Notes: a model not told the origin generated them from the letters alone. Shown: positions 2,072 to 22,170, counted from the first letter of the stretch. The stretch is DNA of 38,542 nt from an uncultured Actinomycetes bacterium (GCA_903873715.1 CAIQPS010000146.1:1-38542); one strand, 5' to 3'. Numbers and translations are program-made.

Positions 2072-2506
2072 ATGAGCGCCAAGAAGATCCTGTTGGTGGA
2101 TGACGACAACGACCTGGTGGCGTCCGTGGAGGCATTCCTCAAGGCCAGGGGCTACGTCGTGAGCACCGCCGGCAACAGCAAGGAAGCGTACAAGCGGATC
2201 GTGGCCGACAGTCCGGACCTCATCGTCCTCGACGTGATGATGGACTACGACGAGGAGGGCATGGTCCTGGCCAGCGCCCTCAAGACCGACGGCCCCACCC
2301 GCGACATCCCGATCATCATGCTCTCCGGCTTCAGCGTGCAGAAGGACGTCCGCGAGAAGGTCCTCGCCTCCCTGATGGGGCAGGACTGGCCGGCAGAGAG
2401 CTTCATGCAGAAACCCGTGCGGCTGGCCGAGCTGGCCGAGCGCATCGAGATGCTTCTGACCCGAGTGGAAGCGCGGCGCAAACCCTGGCCCATCGAGGAG
2501 GCGTGA
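2072..2506 (+). CDS. Stand-alone response-regulator receiver protein
   Basis: 144 residues comprising a single CheY-like receiver. The acidic pocket is D10-D11-D12, the phospho-acceptor is D54 in LIVLDVMMD, the conserved Ser is in IIMLSG and the Lys is in FMQKP. There is no output domain. I chose the ATG at 2072 over an in-frame upstream ATG at 2036 because a perfect AGGAGG sits at 2062-2067. It is the first gene after the tandem Rex sites, and its stop overlaps the start region of the NuoE-like subunit. A likely phosphodonor is the hydrogenase-like histidine kinase encoded at 7028. It is similar in design to the receiver at 9073 (both carry an LD-MM motif). Confidence 0.9.
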   Translation: MSAKKILLVDDDNDLVASVEAFLKARGYVVSTAGNSKEAYKRIVADSPDLIVLDVMMDYDEEGMVLASALKTDGPTRDIPIIMLSGFSVQKDVREKVLASLMGQDWPAESFMQKPVRLAELAERIEMLLTRVEARRKPWPIEEA

Positions 2507-2508
2507 GA

Positions 2509-3012
2509 GTGAGTCCTGTACACGAGGCGAGTCGCGTGGAGGCGTTGCTGGCCGAGCGGCCCGACCACAGCCGCGACCAGCTGATCCCCATGCTGCAGGA
2601 GATCCAGGTGCGGGAGGGCTACCTCTCCCAGGCGGCCATGACCGAATTGGCCGTGGCCCTCGACACCCCGGTGGCCAGCGTCTATGGGGTCGCCACCTTC
2701 TACAACCAGTTCCGCTTTGCCCCGCTCGGCACCCATGTGATCGAGTTGTGCCGGGGCACGGCCTGCCACGTGAAGCAGAGCCTCGCCCTGCAGCAGCACT
2801 TGCAGCGCAGGCTCAAGCTCCGCCCGGACGGCAACTCCGCCGACAAGCGCTTCACCGTCCTCAAGGTCGCCTGCCTCGGCGCCTGCTCGATAGCCCCGGT
2901 GATCAAGCTGGACGGCGAGTTCTACGGCCACCTGACCATCGAGAAGTTGGACTCGCTGCTCGACGCTCTGGACCGCGACTGCTATGCGGCTGAAGAGGCA
3001 GGTGTGGCATGA
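2509..3012 (+). CDS. hydC: [FeFe]-hydrogenase NuoE-like subunit (thioredoxin-like [2Fe-2S])
   Basis: About 167 residues, typical of NuoE/HydC subunits, which carry one [2Fe-2S] cluster and pass electrons between the flavin subunit and the rest of the complex. The N-terminal helical bundle contains GYLSQAAM and GVATFYNQF. The cluster cysteines are in CRGTAC (C-x4-C) and CLGACSIAP (C-x3-C). GTG codons occur at 2503 and 2509; I prefer 2509 because GAGGAGG at 2495-2501 is then seven bases away, while it would be one base from 2503. The end overlaps the next gene as ATGA (3009-3012), indicating translational coupling with hydB. Confidence 0.93.
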   Translation: MSPVHEASRVEALLAERPDHSRDQLIPMLQEIQVREGYLSQAAMTELAVALDTPVASVYGVATFYNQFRFAPLGTHVIELCRGTACHVKQSLALQQHLQRRLKLRPDGNSADKRFTVLKVACLGACSIAPVIKLDGEFYGHLTIEKLDSLLDALDRDCYAAEEAGVA

Positions 3013-5060
3013 CCACCAGCGTGCTGCTCCAACCCTGCTGCTCCAAGTGTACGCACGCCCCCGGGCAGCCGTGCCCGGACCTCATCTCCTGCGTGACGAC
3101 GGGGCCGGTCTGCCACGATGATGCGGAGTGTGCCGCACTACGGGCCGAGCGCCTGGCGGCCGTCCGCCGCGGAGGCGAAGGCTCGGTCCTCTTCGTCGGC
3201 GCCGGCACCTGCGGCCGGGCCAACGGCGCGATGCGCATCATGGGCAAAGCCAAGGCCTTCATCGCCGAACACGGCCTGCCTGTGAGCATCGTCGAGGTGG
3301 GCTGTGTAGGCTACTGCCAGCGCGAGGTCTTCGTGGACCTGCAGCCGCCCAGCGGCCCCCGCCTCTCCTACTGCGACCTCACGCCGCAGAACGCGGACGA
3401 GTTCCTCGACCTGGTGTTCGTGAAGGGTGAGTTCGACAACAAGTTCCTGTACGGGCGCTACCCGGACGCGCCCGCTCCTGGGACGGCGGGCACGGCGGCC
3501 GCCGGCGCTCCCGGCGCCGGCGCCGCGCCGGCCGGTCTCGAGGACGTGCCACTCGTGGCCGACACCCCGTTCTTCGCCCGGCAGACCCGGGTGGTGCTCG
3601 ACAACTGCGGCATGATCGATCCGGCCAGCCTCGATGCGGCCCTGGCCGCCGGCGGCTTCGCCGCAGCTGCCCGGGCGCTCACCTCCATGACGCCCCAGGA
3701 GGTCTGCGACATGGTCAAGTCCTCCGGCCTGCGCGGCCGGGGCGGCGCGGGCTTCCCCACCGGCCAGAAGTGGCAGGTGGCGCACGATCAGGCGACCTCC
3801 CAGAAGTACCTCATCTGCAACGCCGATGAGGGCGACCCCGGCGCGTTCATGGACCGCGCCGTCCTGGAAGGCGACCCGTTCCGGGTGATCGAGGGCATGC
3901 TCGTGGCCGCCTACGCGATCGGAGCCAGCAAAGGCTACGTCTACTGCCGGGCGGAATACCCACTCGCCATCGCCCGCCTGCAGGACGCCATCGTGCAGTG
4001 CCGCAAGGCCGGACTGTTGGGCACGAACATCCTGGGCAGCCTCACCGACTTCGACATCACCATCAAGCAGGGCGCCGGAGCATTCGTGTGTGGCGAAGAG
4101 ACGGCCATCCTGGCGAGCATCGAAGGCGGACGGGGGATGCCCCGGCCGCGGCCCCCGTTCCCCGCGGTCTCCGGCCTGCACGGCAAGCCGACCGTCCTCA
4201 ACAACGTGGAGACCCTGGCCAACGTCCCCGCCATCCTCCGCAACGGGCCCAAGTGGTTCAAAGATCTCGGGATCGGCGACGCGGCAGGCACCAAGGTCTT
4301 CGCCCTGTCGGGCCGAGTGCGGAACACCGGGCTCGTGGAAGTCCCGGTCGGCATCCCGCTGCGGGAGGTCATCTACGACATCGGCGGCGGCGCGCCGGAG
4401 GGCCACGAGATCAAAGCCGTGCAGTTGGGCGGCCCGAGCGGCGGCTGCATCCCCGAGGCCTACCTCGACGTGCCCACGGATTACGGCAAGCTCCAGGAAC
4501 TCGGCGCCATGATGGGCTCCGGCGGGATGGTCGTCATGGACGAGCGCACCTGCATGGTGGACGTGGCCAAGTACTTCATGGAGTTCATCCGCAACGAGTC
4601 CTGCGGCAAGTGCACCCCCTGCCGGGAAGGCACCACCCGCATGCACGAGATCCTCATCGCCCTGACGGAACGCCCGGTCGGCGACGAGATGCGGCGGCTG
4701 GAACGGTTCCGCGGGCTTCTGCATCTCGAGGAACTGGCGCAGACCATCAAGGACACCTCGCTGTGCGGCCTCGGTCAGTCGGCCGCCAACCCGGTGCTCT
4801 CCACCCTCCGCTTCTTCCGCGACGAGTACGAGGCCCACATCATGGAGGACCGCTGCCCGGCCGGCGTGTGCCAGGGGTTGCGGACCTACGAGGTGGACAA
4901 CGCGGTCTGCATCGGCTGCATGGCCTGCAAGAAGGTCTGCCCGTCCGGCGCGATCGTGGGCGAGCGCAAGGCCGCTCACTACATCGTGGTGGACAAGTGC
5001 ATCGGCTGCGCCGCCTGCCTGGAAGCCTGCCCCAAGAACTCCATCGCCCTGGTCGCCTAG
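3009..5060 (+). CDS. hydB: [FeFe]-hydrogenase NuoF-like flavin subunit, NAD(P)H-binding
   Basis: 683 residues with the HydB domain order. A cysteine-rich head (C10, C11, C14, C22, C28, C35, C41) leads into a thioredoxin-like [2Fe-2S] module around residues 55-140, with GTCG and GCVGYC. A NuoF core follows: GLRGRGGAGFPTG and NADEGDPGAF form the FMN/NAD(P)H site, then an SLBB domain and the 4Fe-4S motif ESCGKCTPCREG. Two C-terminal [4Fe-4S] motifs, CIGCMACKKVCP and CIGCAACLEACP, complete it. The family oxidises or reduces NAD(P)H and, in trimeric HydABC enzymes, can bifurcate electrons with ferredoxin; bifurcation here is an inference. Only three canonical cysteines are visible in the [2Fe-2S] module. 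A 192-base gap filled by a foldback element separates it from hydA. Confidence 0.95.
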   Translation: MTTSVLLQPCCSKCTHAPGQPCPDLISCVTTGPVCHDDAECAALRAERLAAVRRGGEGSVLFVGAGTCGRANGAMRIMGKAKAFIAEHGLPVSIVEVGCVGYCQREVFVDLQPPSGPRLSYCDLTPQNADEFLDLVFVKGEFDNKFLYGRYPDAPAPGTAGTAAAGAPGAGAAPAGLEDVPLVADTPFFARQTRVVLDNCGMIDPASLDAALAAGGFAAAARALTSMTPQEVCDMVKSSGLRGRGGAGFPTGQKWQVAHDQATSQKYLICNADEGDPGAFMDRAVLEGDPFRVIEGMLVAAYAIGASKGYVYCRAEYPLAIARLQDAIVQCRKAGLLGTNILGSLTDFDITIKQGAGAFVCGEETAILASIEGGRGMPRPRPPFPAVSGLHGKPTVLNNVETLANVPAILRNGPKWFKDLGIGDAAGTKVFALSGRVRNTGLVEVPVGIPLREVIYDIGGGAPEGHEIKAVQLGGPSGGCIPEAYLDVPTDYGKLQELGAMMGSGGMVVMDERTCMVDVAKYFMEFIRNESCGKCTPCREGTTRMHEILIALTERPVGDEMRRLERFRGLLHLEELAQTIKDTSLCGLGQSAANPVLSTLRFFRDEYEAHIMEDRCPAGVCQGLRTYEVDNAVCIGCMACKKVCPSGAIVGERKAAHYIVVDKCIGCAACLEACPKNSIALVA

Positions 5061-5221
5061 GACTCGATGAATGATGAAGCCACGCCGATCAGGCCGCGCT
5101 GGGTATGCGCAAGGCGAGGACGCAGGGAGGGCTCGTAGCAGCGCTACGGGCACGACCGAGAACACAGCATTGTGCCGCCCAGAGCGGACTCGGCGGCCGC
5201 GGCTTCATCACGAATCGAGTC
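5061..5221. repeat. 161-base foldback (MITE-like) element between hydB and hydA
   Basis: It begins on the base after the hydB stop. The outer arms 5061-5081 and 5201-5221 are inverted repeats matching at 18 of 21 positions (perfect over GACTCGAT/ATCGAGTC and over the inner ten bases). A nested pair follows, CCGCGCTGGG (5094-5103) with CCCAGAGCGG (5178-5187), nine of ten. In the centre GCTCGTAGC-AGC-GCTACGGGC (5131-5151) folds into a nine-pair stem with one G-T pair, flanked by two related direct repeats (GGCGAGGACGCAGG near 5113 and ACCGAGAACACAGC near 5154). It encodes no protein and shows no clear target duplication. It is the only sizeable gap in an otherwise overlapping operon. Confidence 0.65.
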
Positions 5222-5252
5222 AAAACGCCGTCCCGACAGCGGAGAAATGATC

Positions 5253-7028
5253 ATGAACATCACCATCAACGGTAAAGAGATCGCCTTCGAACACGGCGAC
5301 ACCGTCCTCCAAGTGGCCAAACGAGCGGGCATCCGGATACCGCATCTGTGCTCGCTCGACTGGGCGCCCTCGCCCTCGGCGTCCTGCCGTCTGTGTGTGG
5401 TCGAAGTGGAAGGCTCCCCCCGCCTTCAGACCAGTTGCACGCTGCAGGCCGCCGAGGGCATGAAGGTGCAGACCCATACCCCGCGGGTCATGAAAGCCCG
5501 GCGTAACATCGTCGAGTTGCTCGTGGCCAACCATCCCCAGGATTGCCTCGCCTGCGACCGCCAGGGAGCCTGCGAACTGGCCGAACTCACCCGCGAGGTC
5601 GGCGTGCGGCCGCGGCAATACGCCGGCATGAAGAAGGACCAGCACCTGGACATCTCCTCGCCGGCCATCTACCGCGATCCCAACAAGTGCGTGCTCTGCG
5701 GGCGCTGCGTGACCATGTGCCATCAGATCCAGGGCGTTGGCGCCATCGACTTCACCGACCGCGGGTTCCGCACCCAGGTGGCGCCGGGCTTCTCGGCCGG
5801 CCTCAACGTCTCGGGCTGCACCTACTGCGGCCAGTGCGTCCGGGTCTGCCCAACGGGCGCCCTCATGGAGCGCAGCCACGTGAGCGCCGTGGTGGCCGCC
5901 CTGAGCGACCCGAACACAGTGGTGGTCGCGCAGGTGGCCCCGGCCGTCCCCGCCACTCTCGATCAGGAGCGGACCAAACACGAGGGCGTGCCCGTGATGC
6001 TCGAGCACCTCGCCGCCGCCCTCAAACGGGTGGGCTTCACCGCGGTCTTCGATACCGGCTTCACCGCCGACCTGACCATCATGGAAGAGGCCAACGAGCT
6101 GGTCGAGCGGGTGAAGACAGGCGGCGTCCTGCCGATGTTCACCAGCTGCTCCCCGGCATGGATCCAGTACGTCGAGCTCCACCGGCCGGACCTCATCCCG
6201 CACCTGTCCACCTGCAAGTCGCCGCAGCAGATGGCCGGCGCGCTCATCCACGAGATCTATCCGAAGTTCGCCGGGTTCGTCGCAGGCGACGGGACACGTG
6301 GGACCAAGCGCCTGGTGGTCGTATCGCTGATGCCCTGCACCGCCAAGAAGTTCGAGGCGGAGGACGTGGGCGACGTGGAATACGTCCTCACCACCCGGGA
6401 GCTGGGCGCTCTGTGGGAGCGGTTCGGCATCGACTTCGATTCGTTCACCGACCGAGCCCCGCTCGATCCTCCGTTCGCGGAAGCCACCGGCGCGGCCCGC
6501 CTGTTCGGGGGCACCGGCGGCGTCATGGAAGCGGCCGTGCGCACCGCGGCCACCCTGCTGGGCGGCGCCGCACCCGCCGGTCCGTTGCCCGAAGCCCGGG
6601 GCCTGGACGGCTTCAAGTGCTTCAATGTCGATGTGAACGGCATCACTCTCAACCTGGGCGTCATCAACGGTCTCGGCCGGTTGCCGTCCACCCTCCCGGC
6701 GGCCCTCTCGGGGATGCACTTCGTGGAAGTCATGTCCTGCCCGGGCGGCTGCTCCGGTGGCGGCGGCCAGCCCTACAACAGCGACATGACCGACGTCAAG
6801 AAGCGCATCAAGCGCATCTACGAGGCCGACAAGAAGGCGGAGGTCAAGTACTCCCACGAGAACAAGAGCGTGGCCGAACTCTATGAGGAGTTCCTCGGCC
6901 GTCCGCTCGGCGAGGTGTCGCACCACCTGCTGCACCGCTCCTACACCGACAAGAGCGCCCTGACTGCTCTGCACGGAGCGGAAGCGGACACCGGCGCCGT
7001 CTGCGCGGCCGCGGAGGCCGCCGCCTGA
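5253..7028 (+). CDS. hydA: [FeFe]-hydrogenase catalytic subunit (group A, trimeric type)
   Basis: 591 residues catalysing reversible proton reduction/H2 oxidation at the H-cluster. In order: a plant-type [2Fe-2S] domain (C33, then SCRLC and SC), the His-ligated [4Fe-4S] motif HPQDCLACDRQGAC, two [4Fe-4S] motifs (CVLCGRCVTMC and CTYCGQCVRVCP), the H-cluster domain, and a C-terminal small-subunit-like segment (about 508-575). H-cluster motifs are TSCSPAW (C299, S300), MPCTAKKFE (C362) and EVMSCPGGCSGGGGQP (C496, C500). The first motif has Ser where the usual TSCCPxW has its second Cys. I chose ATG 5253 over upstream in-frame ATGs (5172, 5247) because the homology starts there and GGAG lies eight bases upstream. 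Its stop overlaps the next start (TGATG). Confidence 0.96.
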   Translation: MNITINGKEIAFEHGDTVLQVAKRAGIRIPHLCSLDWAPSPSASCRLCVVEVEGSPRLQTSCTLQAAEGMKVQTHTPRVMKARRNIVELLVANHPQDCLACDRQGACELAELTREVGVRPRQYAGMKKDQHLDISSPAIYRDPNKCVLCGRCVTMCHQIQGVGAIDFTDRGFRTQVAPGFSAGLNVSGCTYCGQCVRVCPTGALMERSHVSAVVAALSDPNTVVVAQVAPAVPATLDQERTKHEGVPVMLEHLAAALKRVGFTAVFDTGFTADLTIMEEANELVERVKTGGVLPMFTSCSPAWIQYVELHRPDLIPHLSTCKSPQQMAGALIHEIYPKFAGFVAGDGTRGTKRLVVVSLMPCTAKKFEAEDVGDVEYVLTTRELGALWERFGIDFDSFTDRAPLDPPFAEATGAARLFGGTGGVMEAAVRTAATLLGGAAPAGPLPEARGLDGFKCFNVDVNGITLNLGVINGLGRLPSTLPAALSGMHFVEVMSCPGGCSGGGGQPYNSDMTDVKKRIKRIYEADKKAEVKYSHENKSVAELYEEFLGRPLGEVSHHLLHRSYTDKSALTALHGAEADTGAVCAAAEAAA

Positions 7029-9076
7029 TGGAAGGCATCATCACCACGATCAAGCAGAACTGCCGCAAGTGCTACACCTGCGTGCGGGACTGTCCGGCCA
7101 AGGCCATCCGCATCGAGGATGGCCAGGCGTCGGTGGTCGCGGAGCGGTGCATCAGCTGCGGCAACTGCACCATCGTGTGCTCGCAGGACGCCAAGGCCTA
7201 CGCGAGCGGCATCGACGGAGCGCTGCGGCTGCTCGAGCAGAGCAGGAGTTCGGTCCAGAGCGGCGGCCCGGTGGCGGCGCTGCTGGCCCCGTCCTTCCCA
7301 GTGGGTTTCTCCACCAAGCCTGACAAGGTCATCGGGGCGCTACGGGCGGCCGGGTTCGAGTACGTGGTCGAGGTGGCCTACGGCGCCGACCTGGTGAACG
7401 AGGCCTGCCACGAGTACCTGGGCAAGAACCCCACCGGGCTGCACATAGCCAGCGCATGCCCGGCCGTCGTGGAGTACGTGCGGAAGTACCACCCCGAGCT
7501 GACGGACCGCATCATGCCGATCGTCTCACCGATGGTGGCGACGGCGTTGGCGGTGAAAGAACGGTACGGCGAGCAGGTGCGGTGCGTGTTCATCGGTCCC
7601 TGTGTGGCCAAGAAGGCGGAGGTCCTCGACCCCGAAGTCGACGGCGTGATCGATGAAGTGCTGACGCTCACCGAGTTGGAGCGGGTCTTCGCCGCCCGGA
7701 ACGTCGACCTCCACAAGGCCGAATCCGGGGATTTCGACCCGCCGCACGCCGGTAGCGCCCGCATCTACCCCATCCCGGGCGGGCTGTTCGACAGCGCCGG
7801 GATCGGCGACGGCCTGCGCGACCCACGCCTCGTGGTGGTGAGCGGCAAGGACGAGACCCTCGAGATGCTGGCCGGCATCCCGGTCGGCCCACCGGAGGAG
7901 GAGGACAACGGGCTGCAGCTGGTCGAGGCGCTCATGTGCAGGGGCTGCTATGCCGGGCCCGGGGTCAAGAGCAAGGAGCCCGTGATAGCGCGCGGGCGCC
8001 GGGTGGCCGAGTTCGCCTCCAACTCCGACCTGCGCCAGAAGCACGGCACGCTGCCGCCGTACGAGCCGGCCGAGACCAGGCTGGACCTGTCTCGGCGGTT
8101 CACGCCACACGATCAGCGCAAGACCGGGCCTACCGAGGAAGAGATCCGCAGCATCCTCGCACACACGAACAAGTACTTCCCGGAGGACGAGCTCAACTGC
8201 GGCGCCTGCGGCTATCCGACCTGCCGGGCCAAGGCGGTGGCCGTCCACGCCGGCATGGCCGAAGAGGCCATGTGCCTGCCTTTCATCATCGACCAGGCCG
8301 AGCGGGTCTGCCACGAGCTCAACGTCCCGTGGAGCAACCTGCGCGACGTTCACAGCCACCTCATCAACAGCGAGAAGCTGGCGTCGATGGGACAGATGGC
8401 CGCAGGCGTGGCGCACGAGCTCAACAACCCGCTGAGCACTATCCTGCTCTACTCCCATATCCTCCAGCGGAAGCTGCACGACCGTGGCGACCTGGACCAC
8501 GACCTGCAACTGCTGGCCGAGGAGTCGGCGCGCTGCAAGAAGATCATCGGCAACCTGCTCGACTTCGCCCGGCAGAGCAGGGTGCGCATCGAGAGCGTCT
8601 CGGTGGAGCAGTTGGTGGCTTCTTCCGTGGATGGCGCTGTCGCGGCCATCCCCGCCGGCCCGAACACCCACATAGAGGTCAAGGCGGAGGTGGAGCCGGG
8701 CCTCAAGGCCGACCTCGACCGCGACCAGATGACGCAGGTGCTGGTGAACCTCATCAAGAACGGGGCGGAGGCGATGGAGGGCCGGAGCGGGACCATCCGG
8801 GTGACCGCCTGCGCGATGCCGGAGACCGGCCGGGTGCGCTTCAGCGTGAGCGACCAGGGCACCGGTATCTCGGCCAACGCCCGGGAGAAGATCTTCCAGC
8901 CCTTCTTCACCACCAAGAGCATCGGAAAAGGGACGGGCCTCGGCCTTCCCATCTCCTACGGCATCGTGAAGATGCACAACGGCAACATCTGGTACGAGAC
9001 GGAGCCGGGGCACGGCACCACTTTCTACGTCGAGATACCTATCACCCGGAAGGGTGTGGAAAGGAGCGCGCAATGA
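7028..9076 (+). CDS. Hydrogenase-like (group C type) sensor fused to histidine kinase
   Basis: 682 residues. Residues 1-55 hold a 2x[4Fe-4S] ferredoxin (CRKCYTCVRDCP, CISCGNCTIVC). Residues 80-340 are an [FeFe]-hydrogenase large-subunit domain with H-cluster-type motifs ASACPAVVEY (C144), GPCVAKKAE (C192) and MCRGCYAGPG (C304, C307), the shortened C-x2-C form I associate with sensory group C proteins. Residues 370-420 form a further Fe-S domain (C391, C394, C399, C416). From about 440 comes a histidine kinase: H463 in GVAHELNNPLS, LVNLIKNGAEAM, DQGTGIS and GKGTGLGLPIS. Known sensory hydrogenases often end in a PAS domain; here no PAS is evident and the kinase follows directly. It probably senses H2 or redox state and phosphorylates the neighbouring receivers. 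It is coupled to both neighbours by overlapping stops and starts. Confidence 0.93.
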   Translation: MEGIITTIKQNCRKCYTCVRDCPAKAIRIEDGQASVVAERCISCGNCTIVCSQDAKAYASGIDGALRLLEQSRSSVQSGGPVAALLAPSFPVGFSTKPDKVIGALRAAGFEYVVEVAYGADLVNEACHEYLGKNPTGLHIASACPAVVEYVRKYHPELTDRIMPIVSPMVATALAVKERYGEQVRCVFIGPCVAKKAEVLDPEVDGVIDEVLTLTELERVFAARNVDLHKAESGDFDPPHAGSARIYPIPGGLFDSAGIGDGLRDPRLVVVSGKDETLEMLAGIPVGPPEEEDNGLQLVEALMCRGCYAGPGVKSKEPVIARGRRVAEFASNSDLRQKHGTLPPYEPAETRLDLSRRFTPHDQRKTGPTEEEIRSILAHTNKYFPEDELNCGACGYPTCRAKAVAVHAGMAEEAMCLPFIIDQAERVCHELNVPWSNLRDVHSHLINSEKLASMGQMAAGVAHELNNPLSTILLYSHILQRKLHDRGDLDHDLQLLAEESARCKKIIGNLLDFARQSRVRIESVSVEQLVASSVDGAVAAIPAGPNTHIEVKAEVEPGLKADLDRDQMTQVLVNLIKNGAEAMEGRSGTIRVTACAMPETGRVRFSVSDQGTGISANAREKIFQPFFTTKSIGKGTGLGLPISYGIVKMHNGNIWYETEPGHGTTFYVEIPITRKGVERSAQ

Positions 9077-9501
9077 GCGACCCGGCGAACGGACACGGCA
9101 GCGCCGACAGCGGACCCTGGACCATGCTGTTCGTGGACGACGACACCGATTTCCTGGCAGCCCAGGAGGCCTTCTTCGGCAGCCGCGGCCACAAAGTGGT
9201 GACCGCGGACAGCAGCGCGGACGCGCTGGAGATACTCGAGGCTCTCAACCCGGACATAGTCTTCCTCGATCTGATGATGGAGCGCTACGACAGCGGCTTC
9301 CGGCTGGCCCACGAACTGCGCAAACGCGAGCACCTCAAGGACGTGCCCTTCGTGATGCTGAGCGGAGTGGCCCGGGAGACCGGCGAGCGGTTCGACCAGG
9401 AGGGCAAAGGCCTGCTTTCGTGGACCAAGCTCGACCGGTTCGTGGACAAGCCGGCCACCGGCAGACAACTGCTGGCCGTGGCGGAGGAACTGCTGTCATG
9501 A
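9073..9501 (+). CDS. Second stand-alone receiver protein
   Basis: 142 residues, a single receiver domain after a short, low-complexity head. The acidic pocket is D22-D23-D24, the phospho-acceptor D66 in IVFLDLMM, the Ser in VMLSG and the Lys in FVDKP. There is no output domain. The ATG overlaps the stop of the sensor kinase (ATGA, 9073-9076), with AAGGAG at 9061-9066, so the kinase and receiver are translationally coupled and probably cognate. It resembles the receiver at 2072. Confidence 0.9.
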   Translation: MSDPANGHGSADSGPWTMLFVDDDTDFLAAQEAFFGSRGHKVVTADSSADALEILEALNPDIVFLDLMMERYDSGFRLAHELRKREHLKDVPFVMLSGVARETGERFDQEGKGLLSWTKLDRFVDKPATGRQLLAVAEELLS

Positions 9502-11057
9502 GCGACCCGGCGGCGAAACCCGGCACGGAGGCCCCGGCGGCGCCGGGCAGCGCCGGCACGGCCGCCGCTGCGCCGGGCCCAGGAACGGAGCCGGCCGCTG
9601 CGGCGGCCCCCGCCCGTATCCTCGTCGTCGACGACGAGTACGGCGTCCGCTCCGCCGTCGCCCAGATCCTCGAACTGGAAGGCTACGAAGTGGCCAGCGC
9701 CGCCAGCGGCGAGGAGGCTCTCGCGCTCCTCGCCTCCCCCGGCTTCGACATCGCCCTGCTCGACTACCGGCTGCCAGACACCGACGGCCTGGCCCTGCAC
9801 AAGGACATCCTGGCCACCGGCCGGCAGATCATGACCTGCATGATCACCGCCTACGCCGACATCGACCTGGCCTGCGCCGCCACGTTCCAGGGCATCGACT
9901 TCTTCCTGCCCAAGCCCTTCATGCCGGACGACCTCCTCAACGTCGTCGCGACGCTGGTGAAGCGCCGGCAGGCCCGCGCCGAGGAAGAGCGGCTGCGCCG
10001 GGAGCACGAGGCGAGCCTCCTGGCCCTGGCGGAAGAGAAGTCGCAGACCCACTCGCTCATCTCGTCGCTGCGCGACGCGGTGCTCGTCATCAACCAGACA
10101 GGCGACGTGGTGCTCGCCAACCAGGCGATGACCGCCCTTCTGGAATCGACCGAGCCCGAGGTCCTGCGCCGCCCTGTGGCAGGGCTCCTACGCGGCGGCC
10201 CGCTCGCCTCCCTCATCGATACGCTCGAGTCGCCGGCCAAGGACCGCACCATCGGCCAGCTCTCCATCGGGGAGCGGGACTTCATGACCAGCATCGTCAC
10301 GTTCCGGGCGGAGGACGGCAGCGCGCTGGGACGCATCCTCACGCTCTCGGACATCTCCCAGGTGCGCCGCCTGGCGATGGAGAAGGAGAAGTTCATCCGG
10401 ACGATGGTGCACGAGCTCAAATCGCCCCTGGGAGCGGTGAGGAGCATCATCGAGGTGACCACCGACAAGAGCATGGGCGACGACCTGGAGGCCTATCTGC
10501 CCCTGTTGCGCCGGGCGGAGACCCGCATCGACGACCTCGTGCAGCTCATCAGCGACCTGCTATCGCTCTCCAAGAGCGAGCAGGCCAAGGCGGCGAGCGA
10601 GCCCCAACTCCTGGAGGTGGCGCCCCTCGTGGAGGCGGCGCTGGCCGGCCAGGCTGAACACCTGGCGGCCCGAGGCATCACCGCTTCGGTGCAGGTGGAG
10701 CCGGGACTGCCGCCGGTGCTCGCCCCCATCGAGGACCTGGAGCTCATCCTCAACAACCTCGCCGGGAACGCCGTCAAGTACAACCGGGTGGGTGGCTCCG
10801 TGACGATCTCCGCGCGCCACGAGGGCGAATGGGTGCGCATCGACGTGGAGGACACCGGCATCGGCATCGCGGCCGAGAACGTCGACCAGGTGTTCACCGA
10901 GTTCTTCCGCGAGAAACGGCCCGAGACCAAGGGCCTGGAAGGCAGCGGCCTGGGTCTCTCCATCGTCAAGCGTCTCACCGAGCGCGCCGGCGGGCGCCTG
11001 CAACTGGCCAGCGGACTGGGCGAAGGTTCTGTATTCTCGGTCTTCCTACCGGCGTAG
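9498..11057 (+). CDS. Receiver-PAS-histidine kinase hybrid
   Basis: 519 residues, cytoplasmic, with no transmembrane segment. After an Ala/Pro-rich head (1-38) there is a receiver with D45-D46, phospho-acceptor D89 (ALLDYRLPDTDG) and FLPKPF, then a coiled linker rich in Arg/Glu. A PAS-like domain follows at about 185-285 (DAVLVINQTGDVVLANQAM). The kinase has H305 in MVHELKSPLG, an N-box LNNLAGNAVKYN, DTGIGI and EGSGLGLSIVKRL. The order receiver-PAS-kinase suggests that an upstream phosphate signal tunes a second kinase. The start overlaps the previous stop (ATGA). No DNA-binding output is encoded near it, so its target is unknown. Confidence 0.92.
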   Translation: MSDPAAKPGTEAPAAPGSAGTAAAAPGPGTEPAAAAAPARILVVDDEYGVRSAVAQILELEGYEVASAASGEEALALLASPGFDIALLDYRLPDTDGLALHKDILATGRQIMTCMITAYADIDLACAATFQGIDFFLPKPFMPDDLLNVVATLVKRRQARAEEERLRREHEASLLALAEEKSQTHSLISSLRDAVLVINQTGDVVLANQAMTALLESTEPEVLRRPVAGLLRGGPLASLIDTLESPAKDRTIGQLSIGERDFMTSIVTFRAEDGSALGRILTLSDISQVRRLAMEKEKFIRTMVHELKSPLGAVRSIIEVTTDKSMGDDLEAYLPLLRRAETRIDDLVQLISDLLSLSKSEQAKAASEPQLLEVAPLVEAALAGQAEHLAARGITASVQVEPGLPPVLAPIEDLELILNNLAGNAVKYNRVGGSVTISARHEGEWVRIDVEDTGIGIAAENVDQVFTEFFREKRPETKGLEGSGLGLSIVKRLTERAGGRLQLASGLGEGSVFSVFLPA

Positions 11058-16165: not shown

Positions 16166-17311
16166 CTACCCGGCGCGGCGCCGGCCACCGGGCCCGGACC
16201 CAGCGCTCCGGCCTATCGATTCGATGCGTCCTACGAGGCGGCCCCGGCCCATATCGGCGGTCTCGTTGATGCAGGCCTTGTCCGGGTAGATCTCGTACAG
16301 CACGCGGTACTTGGGCGGGGTGAGGTTCGGCATGACGATGTTGGCGCCCCGCTGCAGGCCCAGTTCCCGGCCGGATTCCTTGTTGATGGTGGCGAGCGCT
16401 GTGGTGCTGGGGATGTTGGCTTCGGGGCAGACCATCCGGGTGACGGCCACCGCGCGGTAGACCATGAGTTCGTCGTTGGGGACCTGGTCCGTCGGCGGCG
16501 GGGCCGAGCCGCCGCTGCCGAGCGGGGTCCCGGGGTGTGGGATGTAGGGGCCGATGCCGATCATGTCTAGGTCCAAGGCGCGGAAGGTCTCAATGTCCCG
16601 GGCGACGGTCTCGTATGTCTGCCCGGGGATGCCCACCATGATGCCGCTGCCTATCTCGTAGCCCATGTCGCGGAGATGGCGCAGCAGGTCCAGCCGGTCG
16701 TTGGGGTGCGAATCGCCGCGCCGGCCGGGGCCGGGCGGGTGGATGCGCCTGTAGAGAGCCGGGTCGGAGGTCTCGAAGCGGACGAGATAGCGGTCGGCCC
16801 CGGCCTCCCGCCAGGCCCGCACGTCCTCCAGGGAGCGCTCGCCCAGGCTGAGCGTCACCGCAAGCCCCGTCTCCGCCTTGATGCGGCGCACCACCCCGGA
16901 GATGAACTCGCGGGTGAGCCCCGGGTCCTCGCCGGCCTGGAGCACGGTGGTGCCCCAGCCGTAGGCCAGAGCCTCGCGCGCGCAACCGACGATCTCGTCC
17001 TCGGTCATGCGGTAGCGGTCGACGGACGTGTTGCCGCCGCGGATGCCGCAGTAGCCGCACAGGCGCACGCAGTGGTTGGAGATCTCCACGAGACCGCGGA
17101 GGTGCACCTGGTCGCCGACGTGCTCGCGGCGGACGGTGTCGGCCTGTTCCCACAGGTCTTCCAGGCGCGCCGGGTCGGTCTCGCGAAGCCGACGCAGGAT
17201 CTCCTCGTGACTGAGGAGGGTGACGGGCGGGGCAGCCACCGGGGGGACCGGCCCGGCGACCTGGACGGCTGCCGCGGCGGCCGGCGCTGCGCCGCACGCC
17301 GGCGCAGTCAT
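16166..17311 (-). CDS. hydE: [FeFe]-hydrogenase maturase HydE (radical SAM)
   Basis: 381 residues. HydE is a radical SAM enzyme that acts on the HydG-made Fe(CO)2CN-cysteine complex on the way to the diiron subcluster of the H-cluster. The SAM cluster motif is CVRLCGYC (C81, C85, C88). GVVRRIK, TLSLGE and the Gly-rich IGSGIMVGIPGQT are in the expected places, and the C-terminus ends in an Arg/Gly-rich tail. The first 30 residues are Ala/Pro-rich and not part of the barrel. The ATG overlaps the hydF stop by one base; a longer open frame to 17626 only shadows hydF. It is the last gene of the operon hydG-aspA-hydF-hydE. Confidence 0.96.
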   Translation of the reverse strand: MTAPACGAAPAAAAAVQVAGPVPPVAAPPVTLLSHEEILRRLRETDPARLEDLWEQADTVRREHVGDQVHLRGLVEISNHCVRLCGYCGIRGGNTSVDRYRMTEDEIVGCAREALAYGWGTTVLQAGEDPGLTREFISGVVRRIKAETGLAVTLSLGERSLEDVRAWREAGADRYLVRFETSDPALYRRIHPPGPGRRGDSHPNDRLDLLRHLRDMGYEIGSGIMVGIPGQTYETVARDIETFRALDLDMIGIGPYIPHPGTPLGSGGSAPPPTDQVPNDELMVYRAVAVTRMVCPEANIPSTTALATINKESGRELGLQRGANIVMPNLTPPKYRVLYEIYPDKACINETADMGRGRLVGRIESIGRSAGSGPGGRRRAG

Positions 17312-18693
17312 CAGCGGCCTCCCGCCATGCCGAGCGGCCTGATGGCCGGAGCGCGGCCCGTGGCTGCGCGCACGATGTCGAGCGCCGCCGGGAAGGGCTG
17401 CAGAGCCCGCTCGAAGATGCCGAGGCTGTAGGCGATCGACAGGCCGTAGTTGGTGACCGGCACACCGGCCTGCTTGCACCGCAGGATGCGGGTGAGCATC
17501 GCCCGGCGGTTGGCCGTGCAGGCCCCACAATGGATGACCGCGCTGTAGCCGGACAGATCCTCGGGGAAGTCGTGCCCCTGCACCATGTCGACCTCGAGCT
17601 TGCCGCCCACGTACTGGTTGAGCCACCGCGGGATCTTCACCCGCCCGATGTCGTCGGCGATGGGATGGTGGCTACACGACTCGGCGATGAGGATGCGGTC
17701 GCCGGGCCGCAGGTTCTCGAGCGCCAGCGCTCCTTCCACCTGGGCGGTCAGGTCGCCTTTGAACCGGGCGAACAGGATTGAGAAGCTGGTCATGGGGATG
17801 TCCGGCGGAGTGTCCGCCGCCACTTTGAGGAAGGCCTGGGAATCGGTGACCACCAGCTTGGGCGGCGTGTTGAGGCGCGCGAGAGCCGTGCGCAGTTCCC
17901 GCTCCTTGACCACCAGCGCCATGGCATCGGCGTCGAGCAGGTCGCGGATGGACTGCACCTGCGGCAGGATGAGCCGGCCGCGCGGAGCTTCCTTGTCGAC
18001 CGGTACCACCAGCACCGCGAGGCCGTCGGGGCCCACCAGGTCGGAGAGGATGGCCGGGTTCTCGATGAAGTGCTCCGGCGCGCTCTGCAGCAGCGCCTCC
18101 CGCACGTCGAGGATGCCTTCGCGGCGAAGGGCCGAGACCGCCACCGTCTTGACCTTGGCCGCGGCAAGAGCCGCGGCGGCAGCCGCAGGCACCGCGGCCT
18201 TCCCGTCGATGGTGTCGATCTTGTTGAAGACGGCCACGGCCGGGATGCCGCGCCCGCTCAGTTCGGCAAGGATCTGCTCCTCGAAGTCGCCCCACTCCGC
18301 CGCTTCGGTCACGATCACGCCGAGGTCGGTGCGATCGAAGACCTGGAGCGTCCGGCGGGCCCGCAACTCGCCCAGGGCGCCCACGTCGTCCAGACCGGCC
18401 GTGTCGATGAACAGCACCGGGCCGAGGGGCAACAGCTCCATGGGCTTCTCCACCGGGTCGGTGGTCGTCCCCGCCTGCTCCGACACGATGGACACGTCCT
18501 GCCGGGTGATGGCGTTGAGCAGGCTGGACTTGCCGACGTTGCGCCGGCCGAAGAAGGCGATGTGCAGGCGCATGCCCCGCGGGGTGTCGTTGAGGCCGCC
18601 GGCGAAGCCGGCGCCGGGGGTGACCGCCGAGGCTGGGGCGGCGAAGCCGCCGGTGGGCGCGGCGCCTCGGCCCGCGCCGGGGGTCATGCTCAT
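17311..18693 (-). CDS. hydF: [FeFe]-hydrogenase maturase HydF (GTPase scaffold)
   Basis: 460 residues. HydF is the GTPase and scaffold that carries the diiron subcluster precursor and delivers it to HydA. The GTPase domain has GRRNVGKSS (49-57), the switch TTTDPVEK, DTAGLDD and NKID. The C-terminal cluster site is C340-S-H342 with HCGAC (C389, C392), matching the family's CxH...HCxxC pattern. The first 40 residues are a low-complexity Gly/Ala/Pro head not usual for HydF. The start overlaps the aspA stop as ATGA (18690-18693). Confidence 0.96.
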   Translation of the reverse strand: MSMTPGAGRGAAPTGGFAAPASAVTPGAGFAGGLNDTPRGMRLHIAFFGRRNVGKSSLLNAITRQDVSIVSEQAGTTTDPVEKPMELLPLGPVLFIDTAGLDDVGALGELRARRTLQVFDRTDLGVIVTEAAEWGDFEEQILAELSGRGIPAVAVFNKIDTIDGKAAVPAAAAAALAAAKVKTVAVSALRREGILDVREALLQSAPEHFIENPAILSDLVGPDGLAVLVVPVDKEAPRGRLILPQVQSIRDLLDADAMALVVKERELRTALARLNTPPKLVVTDSQAFLKVAADTPPDIPMTSFSILFARFKGDLTAQVEGALALENLRPGDRILIAESCSHHPIADDIGRVKIPRWLNQYVGGKLEVDMVQGHDFPEDLSGYSAVIHCGACTANRRAMLTRILRCKQAGVPVTNYGLSIAYSLGIFERALQPFPAALDIVRAATGRAPAIRPLGMAGGR

Positions 18694-20228
18694 AGCGTGT
18701 CCGTCCTCCCTCCGGCCGGGGTGCGGCCGGGAGCGATGTCGGGGCTGCCCAGGCGGGTGACCGCCTCGGGCGAAAGAAGCTGGTCGACCTCGGCCTCGGT
18801 GAGGATGCCGTCGTCCACGACGGTCGCCCGGATGGTCCGGCCCGTCTCCAGCGCACGGGCGGCCACGGCCGCCGCGCCCTCGTAGCCGAGCGCCGGCAGG
18901 AGCGCCGTCACGCTCGCGGTCGAGGACTCGACCTGGGCGCGGCAGCGAGCCTCGTCCACGGTGATGCCCTCCACGCAGTGCCGCCGCAGGATGTCGCAGG
19001 CCCCACTCAGCAGCCGGATGGACTCGAGCAGACAGTCGGCGATGAGCGGCAGGTAGGGGTTCAGGTCCAGCGATCCGCCGGCCGCGGCGGCGGCTATCGC
19101 CTGGTCGTACGCCATCACCATCATGGCCGCCTGGGCGACGGCCTCCGGGATCACCGGGTTGACCTTCCCCGGCATGATGCTTGAACCGGCCTGCCGCTGC
19201 GGCAGCCGGATCTCGCCGAAGCCGGCTTCCGGCCCCGAGGAGAGCAGGCGCAGGTCGTTGGATATCTTGAGCAGGGTGGCGGCGCAGGCCTTGAGGATGC
19301 CCGACACCTCCACGAACACGTCTGCGTTCTGCGTTGCTTCCACCAGGTTCTCCGCCCGGGCGAAGCCGATGCCGGTGAGCTCCCGCAGGGTATCGACCAC
19401 GCGGAAGATGAACTGCCGCGGCGCCGCCAACCCGGTCCCGATGGCGGTGCCTCCCAGGTTGACCACCCGCAGCCGTTCCTCGCATTTGTAGACCCGCCAG
19501 CGGTCCCGGCTGAGGGCCTCCGCGTAAGCGCCCATCTCGCGTCCGAGGGTGGTGAGCACCGCGTCCTGCATCTCCGTGCGCGCGACCTTCACCACGTGGG
19601 CGTACTTCTGTTCCAAAGCCTGGAACGCTTCCTGCAGGGCCACGAGCCGGTCCTCGAGCGCGTGGAGCAGGAGGATGGCCGCCAGCCGCAGGGCCGTCGG
19701 ATACGTGTCGTTGGTGGATTGATGCAGGTTGATGTCGTCGAGAGGCGAGATCTGGCCGTAGGAGCCGGGGGCGCTGCCGCGGAGCTGCAGCGCGCGGTTC
19801 GCCAGCACCTCGTTGACGTTCATGTTGGTGCTCGTCCCGGCCGCACCCTGAAGGCGGTCGACCAGCACGTGCTCCGTAAGCCGGCCCTCGGCCATCTCCC
19901 GGCAGGCCGCCTCGATGGCGTCCGCCTTCTCCGGTTCCTCGGCCCATGCGCCGAGCGCACGGTTGGTGAGCGCGCAGGCGAGCTTGACGGCGCCGTATGC
20001 GGCGACCAGTTCGGCGTGCACCGGCCTTCCGGCCAGGGGGAAGTTCGCGAGGGCCCGGACCGTGTGGATGCCGTACAGGGCGTCCGCCGGCACCTCCTGG
20101 AAGCCGAGCAGGTCGCGCTCCAGGCGGAAGCCGGGCGCGGCGCCGGCAGGCGCCGGGGGGAAAGCGCCTACCGGTGCCGCGCCGTCGCTGCGGCCTCCGC
20201 TCGCGTCCTGCCTGCTAGCAGAAGACAT
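18690..20228 (-). CDS. aspA: Aspartate ammonia-lyase
   Basis: 512 residues. It converts aspartate to fumarate and ammonia. The superfamily signature GSSIMPGKVNP is near residue 350, followed by VIPEAV, as in aspartases rather than class II fumarases. The N-terminal RLERDLLGFQEVPADALYGIHT block and TSTNMNVNEVLANRA also favour aspartase. The first 33 residues are Ala/Pro/Gly-rich and extra. The ATG at 20228 lies 14 bases inside the end of hydG, and the end overlaps hydF, so the gene is an integral part of the maturation operon. Ammonia for the azadithiolate nitrogen is a plausible job, which is an inference from position. Confidence 0.92.
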   Translation of the reverse strand: MSSASRQDASGGRSDGAAPVGAFPPAPAGAAPGFRLERDLLGFQEVPADALYGIHTVRALANFPLAGRPVHAELVAAYGAVKLACALTNRALGAWAEEPEKADAIEAACREMAEGRLTEHVLVDRLQGAAGTSTNMNVNEVLANRALQLRGSAPGSYGQISPLDDINLHQSTNDTYPTALRLAAILLLHALEDRLVALQEAFQALEQKYAHVVKVARTEMQDAVLTTLGREMGAYAEALSRDRWRVYKCEERLRVVNLGGTAIGTGLAAPRQFIFRVVDTLRELTGIGFARAENLVEATQNADVFVEVSGILKACAATLLKISNDLRLLSSGPEAGFGEIRLPQRQAGSSIMPGKVNPVIPEAVAQAAMMVMAYDQAIAAAAAGGSLDLNPYLPLIADCLLESIRLLSGACDILRRHCVEGITVDEARCRAQVESSTASVTALLPALGYEGAAAVAARALETGRTIRATVVDDGILTEAEVDQLLSPEAVTRLGSPDIAPGRTPAGGRTDTL

Positions 20229-22113
20229 CTCGTCTGCCCTCGCGCACCCGCGCGATCTGCCTTTCGGCCACCTGGCGCTCGAACGGGTCCATGGCTTCCA
20301 ACTCGGCCACGATGCGGGCCTCGCCGGCGGCACGCGTCCGCTCGGAAGCGAAATCCATCAGGTACTCCTCGAAGGTGGACAGGGCGTTGGGCTGGCACAT
20401 GTGCTTGATCTCGCCCGGTTTGGCCAGGTCCATGAAGTCGTGGCCGGTGCGGCCCAGGCGGTAGCAGGCGGTGCAGAACGACGGGGTGTAGCCCAGTTCG
20501 GCCACATCCCGCATGACCTCATCCAGCGACCGGTGGTCGCCCATCTGGAACTGCTGCGCCTCGAACTCCTCGTCGTCGGCGTAGCCGCCGGGGTTGGTGC
20601 GGCTGCCGCCGGAGATCTGCGACACGCCCAAGGCAAAGGTCTCGCGCCGGATGTTGGGCGTCTCCCGGGTGGACATGATGATGCCCGTGTACGGCACCGC
20701 CAGACGCAGGATGGCGACGATCTTGCGGAAGTCCACATCGGACACCGCGTAGGGCGGATGGCTGGCATAGTCGGAACCGACGGCCGGCTCCATCCGCGGG
20801 ACGCTCAGCGTGTGCGGACCGACCCCGTAGGCGTCCTCGAGGTGACGGATGTGCTGGAGCAGCGCCAGGATCTCGAAGCGCCAGTCGAACAGCCCGAACA
20901 GCACCCCGATGCCCACGTCGTCCACGCCGGCCTGCATGGCCCGGTCGGGCGCGGTGATGCGGTAGTCGTAGTCCTTCTTCTTGCCGGCCACGTGCATCCG
21001 GGCGTAGGTGTCGCGGTGGTAGGTCTCCTGGAAGATCTGGTACGTCCCGATGCCGGTGGCCTTCAGCTGCTTGAACTCCTCGACGGTCAGGGGCGCGACG
21101 TTCACGTTCACCCGGCGGATCTCGCCTTTGGGCCGCTTCACCGCGTACACCGACTCGATGCTCTTGAGCACGTAGTCGAACCCTTCGCGCGGATACGACT
21201 CGCCCGCCACCAGCAGCACGCGCTTGTGGCCCTGGTCGATCAGCAGGCCTACCTCGTCCCGGATCTCTTCCTGGGTGAGTGCGCGGCGCTTGATCTCCTT
21301 GTTGCGGGCCCGGAAGGCGCAATAGAGACACTCGTTGCCGCACAGGTTGGAGATGTAGAGCGGCGCGAACATGACGATGCGGTTGCCGTATATCTGCTCT
21401 TTGACCTTGCGGGCCGTGGCGAACAGTTCGCCGAGCAGGTCGGGCTCGCTCACCTGGGCGAGAGCCGCCACTTCCTCTTCTTCCAGGCCCTTGAGCTCGA
21501 GGGCCTTGGTCAGCACCCTGCGCACGTAGTCCGCGTCGCGGCTCCTCGACTCCTGCAGCACCGCGAAGATACGTTCCTCGTCTATGGGGACCTTGCCGCC
21601 GTTGCGGCGCAATGTCTCCGCCTCGGCTTCGGCATCCGCCCCCGACGTCGCCTCGGCCGCGGCTTTCACCGGCCGGCGGTGGGCGTGCCGCGACACGAAC
21701 TCGGTGACCCGCTCCAGCGTGTCGCCGGCGATGGCATGCTCTACGGCGCATGCCTCCTGCTCGGCGTCGTCGCTTGGAAGACCGAGGATGTCGGAGAACA
21801 GGTGGATCAGCACCTGGTGACGGTCGAGCATCTCGTTGGCCACGCGCCAACCCTCGGCCGTCAGTTCGACGGCGCCGTAGCTCTCGTGCTCCACCAAGCC
21901 GCGTTTGGCCAACTGGGAGATGGCCTCCGAAGCCGAGGGGACTTTGACGCCCCGAGCGGCCGCGATGTCGGACATCTTGGCGCTGCCCTCGGCCAGCGAG
22001 AGCGAAGCGATGGTCTTGAGGTAGTCCTCCATGCGGGAGGTGAGATCGAGCGCGGCGGTCATCGGACCGTCGCCCGGATCAGGAACGCTCTGGGGGGTGA
22101 GTTCGGCGTTCAA
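20215..22113 (-). CDS. hydG: DtxR/MntR-type repressor fused to HydG (CO/CN-forming radical SAM maturase)
   Basis: 632 residues in one uninterrupted frame. Residues 28-143 are a complete DtxR/MntR module: MEDYLKTI, a winged helix (MSDIAAARGVKVPSASEAI, then LTAEG) and a dimerisation/metal part with RHQV and EACAVEH. D30, C122, E125 and H126 match the primary metal site of the family. After an Ala/Glu-rich linker (144-174) comes full HydG, which splits tyrosine to make CO and cyanide bound to iron. Its radical SAM cysteines are C258, C262 and C265 (CGNECLYC), and its C-terminal cluster is C547, C550 and C573 (C-x2-C-x22-C). I chose TTG 22113 because a perfect AGGAGG is seven bases upstream; ATG 22170 would overlap the promoter, and ATG 22062 has no good site but would still include both domains. 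Confidence 0.92.
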   Translation of the reverse strand: MNAELTPQSVPDPGDGPMTAALDLTSRMEDYLKTIASLSLAEGSAKMSDIAAARGVKVPSASEAISQLAKRGLVEHESYGAVELTAEGWRVANEMLDRHQVLIHLFSDILGLPSDDAEQEACAVEHAIAGDTLERVTEFVSRHAHRRPVKAAAEATSGADAEAEAETLRRNGGKVPIDEERIFAVLQESRSRDADYVRRVLTKALELKGLEEEEVAALAQVSEPDLLGELFATARKVKEQIYGNRIVMFAPLYISNLCGNECLYCAFRARNKEIKRRALTQEEIRDEVGLLIDQGHKRVLLVAGESYPREGFDYVLKSIESVYAVKRPKGEIRRVNVNVAPLTVEEFKQLKATGIGTYQIFQETYHRDTYARMHVAGKKKDYDYRITAPDRAMQAGVDDVGIGVLFGLFDWRFEILALLQHIRHLEDAYGVGPHTLSVPRMEPAVGSDYASHPPYAVSDVDFRKIVAILRLAVPYTGIIMSTRETPNIRRETFALGVSQISGGSRTNPGGYADDEEFEAQQFQMGDHRSLDEVMRDVAELGYTPSFCTACYRLGRTGHDFMDLAKPGEIKHMCQPNALSTFEEYLMDFASERTRAAGEARIVAELEAMDPFERQVAERQIARVREGRRDVFC

Positions 22114-22114
22114 G

Positions 22115-22143
22115 TTAGGGCCTCCTAAGTAAGGGTGCCCTAA
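22115..22143 (-). promoter_or_regulatory. Two tandem DtxR-type boxes over the hydG leader and ribosome binding site
   Basis: TTAGG-GCCT-CCTAA (22115-22128) is a perfect dyad and TAAGG-GTGC-CCTAA (22130-22143) an almost perfect one, separated by a single base. TTAGG/CCTAA half-sites are those of DtxR/IdeR operators (consensus TTAGGTTAGGCTAACCTAA), although the spacing here is shorter. Read on the minus strand, the proximal box contains the Shine-Dalgarno AGGAGG (22126-22121) for the TTG at 22113, and the distal box touches the -10. Confidence 0.7.
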
Positions 22144-22170
22144 GTTTACAGCAAGCTGTGAAACTTTCAA
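22143..22170 (-). promoter_or_regulatory. Probable promoter of the hydG-aspA-hydF-hydE operon
   Basis: On the minus strand TTGAAA (22170-22165) is followed after 16 bases by TAAACT (22148-22143), giving a leader of only about 23 bases. The -10 touches the distal DtxR-type box. TGTGAAACTTTCAACA (22157-22172, plus strand) overlaps the -35 and is a degraded Rex-like dyad: the left half is perfect and the right half matches three of five. Confidence 0.5.

Follow-up and report, generated by a model that had tools for sequence, protein, structure and literature searches.

The protein encoded at 7028-9076 (plus strand, 682 amino acids), here called HydS-HK, is best explained as an Fe-S sensor kinase of a hydrogenase operon that probably responds to H2 through an H-cluster, a reading to which we assign a probability of about 0.6. 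The gene lies in a 38,542-nt stretch of DNA from an uncultured Actinomycetes bacterium (GCA_903873715.1 CAIQPS010000146.1:1-38542; the window). An initial annotation had proposed that ferredoxin clusters, an [FeFe]-hydrogenase-like H-domain, a further Fe-S domain, and a histidine kinase are joined in one chain at these same coordinates, and the ORF call and Pfam agree. The domain order, ligand cysteines, complete kinase, operon, maturases, and conservation described below are read from the sequence. The N-terminal 2x[4Fe-4S] ferredoxin domain (7052-7192; Pfam 4Fe-4S dicluster, residues ~9 to 55) contains C12/15/18/22 and C41/44/47/51; in the family alignment, the ferredoxin-domain cysteines are kept across output types. 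It is followed by the H-domain (Fe_hyd_lg_C; 7271-7960, residues 82 to 311, 6e-43, 147.6 bits) and a C-terminal Fe-S domain (PF04060; 8192-8281, residues 389 to 418) with the motif C391-x2-C394-x4-C399-x16-C416. The kinase core (8387-9046) consists of HisKA (residues 454 to 516), with its H-box and H463, and HATPase_c (residues 564 to 673; N578, D609/G611/G613), in which the N, G1, F, and G2 boxes are all found by Pfam and alignment; it is thus complete, as had been anticipated. Pfam matched no PAS domain in HydS-HK, and HisKA comes directly after the Fe-S domain.

The H-domain motifs are SAC144PAV (L1), GPC192VAKK (L2), and EALMC304RGC307 (L3; 7925-7963). All four ligand cysteines are present where the initial annotation placed them and correspond to C300, C355, C499, and C503 of CpI; what that annotation missed is that the gap between C304 and C307 is one residue short, giving CxxC in place of the canonical CxxxC. 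L1 has Ala at the C299 proton-transfer position. C144, C192, C304, C307, and H463 are invariant in seven Actinomycetota orthologues (66 to 74% identity) and likewise in a 42%-identical full-length paralogue, which belongs to a second HydABC/HydS-HK module on another contig (C2) of the same genome. The best match of a predicted model of residues 1 to 426 was to [FeFe]-hydrogenases, with CbA5H (8zqd) giving a Z score of 28.8 and an rmsd of 3.3 over 303 aligned residues; the L3 region mostly had pLDDT values below 50 in two AlphaFold predictions made with only 8 sequences. The eight homologues rule out chance or a frame artefact as the source of the ORF.

HydS-HK is embedded between the catalytic subunit and a receiver, as had been noted before. 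The genes on the plus strand, assigned by domain matches, run Rex (an NADH/NAD-responsive repressor; 1270-1935), a stand-alone receiver (2036-2506), HydC (NuoE-like; 2503-3012), HydB (NuoF-like, FMN/NADH; 3009-5060), the bifurcating-type catalytic subunit HydA (5172-7028), HydS-HK, a second stand-alone receiver (9073-9501) that is the first candidate phospho-acceptor, a receiver-PAS-HisKA-HATPase protein (9498-11057), and a rhodanese gene. The HydA stop overlaps the HydS-HK start in TGATG, and ATGA overlaps join HydS-HK to the receiver and the receiver to the receiver-PAS-kinase gene. Taken together, the domains, the residues invariant in orthologues, the fold match, and the gene overlaps indicate that HydS-HK is genuine and conserved and that its operon is tightly packed.

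The same gene order recurs in two loci whose source shares its phylum with a Stygiobacter MAG (L159 and L160), in one whose source shares it with a Syntrophaceae MAG (L161), and, Rex included, in L169. The second protein downstream is a receiver-kinase, usually with PAS, as in L159, L161, L163, and L169; in L165, a sigma54-type regulator instead comes right after HydS-HK. A same-strand receiver lies downstream in 40 of 41 kinase-fused loci. The nearest solved structures to the window HydA are HydA1 of T. kivui and of A. woodii. Its L1 motif is TSCSPAW, with Ser at the position of the CpI ligand C300. This residue does not mark the window HydA as inactive, since A. woodii HydA1 (7q4v) also has TSCSP and Ser at this position is common among BfuA subtypes (PMC11406978).

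The maturases are encoded on the opposite strand of the window: a HydE ORF at 16166-17626 (TIGR03956, matched at residues 138 to 473), HydF at 17311-18585 (TIGR03918), and HydG at 20215-22170 (TIGR03955); an aspartate ammonia-lyase-like gene separates HydF from HydG. All three exceed the curated NCBIfam cutoffs. The N terminus of the window HydG is a complete DtxR/IdeR-type iron-dependent repressor (Fe_dep_repress plus Fe_dep_repr_C), and a relative (L170) carries the same uninterrupted DtxR-HydG fusion; it would be unusual for a maturase to be coupled to DNA binding that responds to iron. Relatives at L009/L180 and in genomes G396, G397, G1002, and G1003 have HydABC and HydS-HK with HydF and HydG unmatched, for which MAG gaps are a possible cause; G396 retains the flanking MMPL gene, but HydE does not come after it.

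A survey of kinase-fused members, which had been suggested as a check, was carried out on ~1,000 genomes and a plasmid collection; output types were assigned with local profiles, and a subset was checked with Pfam. HydS-like proteins ended in a histidine kinase at 41 loci from several phyla, in GGDEF at 28, in PAS at 20, in a sigma54-AAA-HTH module at 8, and in an MCP domain at 1. Five further forms had no C-terminal output; one had an N-terminal HATPase. The GGDEF-fused loci (L045 to L072) are all from Actinomycetota. The sigma54 fusions (L134, L138, L139, L140, L148, L150, L151, and L152; three checked with Pfam) place an AAA+ activator and HTH on the H-domain, in the manner of a one-component enhancer-binding protein, with the canonical CxxxC and His at the C299 position. 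The MCP form (L158:928-2778) realizes the "chemotactic" C2 idea of HydDB in one chain. At L028:17974-19668 (same genome), an N-terminal anti-sigma-type HATPase sits on a degenerate HydS-like domain beside a small DRTGG-like gene, and in Parabacteroides (L077), DRTGG and PHP genes occur in a comparable split cluster. We found no published GGDEF- or sigma54-fused [FeFe] proteins in the open-access literature.

The placement of the hydrogenase domain as group C-like was supported. In the tree, from which group D and TmHydS sequences were absent, the H-domain of HydS-HK groups with HydS, apart from groups A and B. By its sequence, HydS-HK is thus a group C-like (HydS) protein, groups C and D not being separated by this tree. 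When the L3 columns were removed, a branch supported at 99/94 set the kinase, GGDEF, and sigma54 sequences apart from the others.

The spacing in L3 divides the family by output. CxxC was found in 41 of 41 kinase-fused and 28 of 28 GGDEF-fused sequences, while CxxxC was found in all 20 PAS-ended and all 8 sigma54-fused sequences, in the single MCP form, in the five other forms, and in the window HydA. Loci from the phylum of the Stygiobacter MAG, with the layout of BfuT clusters, also have CxxC. A single origin of CxxC, with the kinase and GGDEF fusions as one clade, was not rejected (AU P = 0.48). We found no mention of the L3 shortening in the open-access literature, which does not prove novelty. 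A second marker is lysine K358 of CpI, which binds a cyanide of the diiron site. Its equivalent in HydS-HK is Lys195, and this lysine is kept in 34 of 40 kinase-fused and 20 of 20 PAS-ended sequences but in only 3 of 28 GGDEF-fused and none of 8 sigma54-fused sequences. HydF was matched in 13 of 17 genomes with the PAS type, in 15 of 30 with lysine-keeping kinases, and in none of the 22 and 8 genomes with the GGDEF and sigma54 types, respectively. Genomes with any lysine-keeping member had HydF in 26 of 46 cases versus 1 of 33 for those with lysine-less members only (Fisher P = 2e-7, a value that is descriptive only, since the genomes are related and unevenly sampled).

On these contrasts, the H-cluster is probably absent from the GGDEF and sigma54 branches, which would then respond to some other signal, most simply the Fe-S redox state. 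If the short L3 held only a cubane where the H-cluster used to be, HydS-HK would be a diiron-free redox sensor that reads the ferredoxin/NADH pool through its Fe-S potential and not H2. In favor of this explanation, CxxC is common to all 69 kinase- and GGDEF-fused sequences, with one origin unrejected, and the GGDEF branch shows the losses just described; a kinase-fused sub-branch within the Desulfobacterota-type set lacks the lysine, and HydF is missing in 5 of 6 of its genomes; and for some close relatives that carry HydABC and HydS-HK, neither HydF nor HydG was matched. However, the window's own branch retains the lysine and adjoins HydA, and HydE, HydF, and HydG are encoded in the window. 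Moreover, a missing HydF in MAGs is weak evidence, since HydF likewise went unmatched in 7 of the 21 genomes whose HydA is of the canonical TSCCP form; the GGDEF zero is more telling, because those genomes are 81 to 100% complete. We regard a diiron-free redox kinase as the main, though rather unlikely, alternative and favor the H2-responsive kinase over it. A broader scenario is possible, though still doubtful: the CxxC branch could have begun with one L3 deletion that made a diiron-free Fe-S redox sensor out of a hydrogenase active site, with kinase and diguanylate cyclase outputs swapped, which would make the window protein a ferredoxin-pool sensor still residing in a hydrogenase operon. 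In terms of sequence features, the window protein is intermediate, having the short L3 of the GGDEF type, yet keeping the lysine, the HydA operon, and the maturases.

The H2-sensor reading is strengthened by the invariant ligands, the H-domain fold, the grouping with HydS, Lys195, and the maturases in the window; by the Cx2Cx4Cx16C motif and the noncysteine residue (Ala) at the C299 position, as in published HydS; and by the HydA and receiver adjacency, the overlapping genes, and the second module on C2. It is weakened by an L3 that lacks one residue relative to the catalytic and PAS-ended [FeFe] proteins used for comparison and by the HydF counts, both for the GGDEF branch with the same spacing and for the lysine-keeping kinases. 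Two other explanations fare worse. HydS-HK could be a regulatory partner that docks on HydABC and senses electron flow rather than free H2, as its ferredoxin-type N terminus, the overlap of its start codon with the HydA stop, and a HydA gene just before it in 24 of 41 loci would allow; this is improbable, since L011 and L014 have Rex, the receiver, and HydS-HK with no HydABC between them. The other, a relic hydrogenase domain on a constitutive kinase, might draw on the catalytic residues having been lost at the C299 and M497 positions but is hardly credible given cluster-ligand cysteines that are essentially invariant family-wide.

In the H2-responsive mechanism that we infer, which extends to cofactor loading, H2 as the ligand, the direction of the signal, the receiver partners, and the regulon, HydS-HK would be cytosolic, and its H-domain would be loaded with the H-cluster by the HydE, HydF, and HydG encoded nearby. 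H2 would reduce or bind the H-domain, or else ferredoxin would poise it via the two N-terminal clusters. The state of the H-domain, or a resulting conformational change, would be passed to the C-terminal Fe-S domain and, through a short PAS-free helix, to the DHp helix. Autophosphorylation at H463 would thereby be altered, as would phosphotransfer to the pair of receivers downstream, and these may then adjust the bifurcating HydABC alongside Rex. Because the sensor and its output, a soluble kinase, share one chain and receivers are encoded alongside, autophosphorylation can report on putative group C H2 sensing. L3 length and the HydF contrast predict that PAS-type HydS takes up diiron and that the GGDEF type does not; the kinase type decides where the line between diiron and no diiron falls.

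The fusion itself is of a known type, and the earlier view that putative sensory [FeFe] proteins are mostly PAS ended with an unclear output was overstated. HydDB proposed in 2016 the putative classes C1, "histidine kinase-linked," C2, "chemotactic," and C3, "phosphatase-linked" (PMC5037454). In 2024, Hydrogenedentota were described as having C1 proteins with HATPase_c domains and, beside A3 hydrogenases, the C3 protein BfuT with a His-kinase domain, and bfuT adjoins bfuA in Calditrichota and Bacteroidota (PMC11406978). Linked kinases were also noted in Vallitalea (PMC6163223) and Cloacimonadota (PMC8542988). The first two of these reports rule out the kinase fusion as a first. In the literature searched, we found no H2 response of any kinase-fused member. 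When the PAS-type hfsB is deleted in thermophilic clostridia, ethanol yield and hydrogenase activity both change (PMC5707799), which is indirect evidence that the HydS family regulates.

Group C HydS is defined by two N-terminal [4Fe-4S] motifs and a C-terminal Cx2Cx4Cx16C, the latter motif being described for groups C and D (PMC8163306). HydS-HK has both the N- and C-terminal Fe-S motifs but lacks the C-terminal PAS domain that also marks the group. By domains and neighborhood, rather than by HydDB's own classifier, it shows the features of the kinase-linked C1 and C3 proteins, namely, a histidine kinase fusion near a bifurcating hydrogenase. BfuT (C3; subtype V BfuABC clusters of Hydrogenedentota, Calditrichota, and Bacteroidota) similarly combines an H-domain and a histidine kinase beside the A3 bifurcating bfuA, although in another phylum (PMC11406978). 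HydS-HK shares with HydDB C1 the proposed sensing of H2 through a histidine kinase (PMC5037454); however, C1 of Hydrogenedentota hardly shows H-cluster motifs (PMC11406978), whereas HydS-HK keeps all four ligands. The PAS-ended RaHydS (Ruminococcus albus) and TmHydS (Thermotoga maritima) likewise have ferredoxin clusters, an H-domain, and a C-terminal Fe-S domain, and TmHydS also has a noncysteine residue at the C299 position; unlike HydS-HK, both have a PAS end and no kinase, and RaHydS, a published putative sensor, has CxxxC in L3 and an adjacent SpoIIE-type phosphatase gene. Finally, the regulatory [NiFe]-hydrogenase with HoxJ resembles HydS-HK as an H2 sensor steering a two-component system, but its active site is unrelated, and its sensor and kinase are separate proteins (see also PMC5707799).
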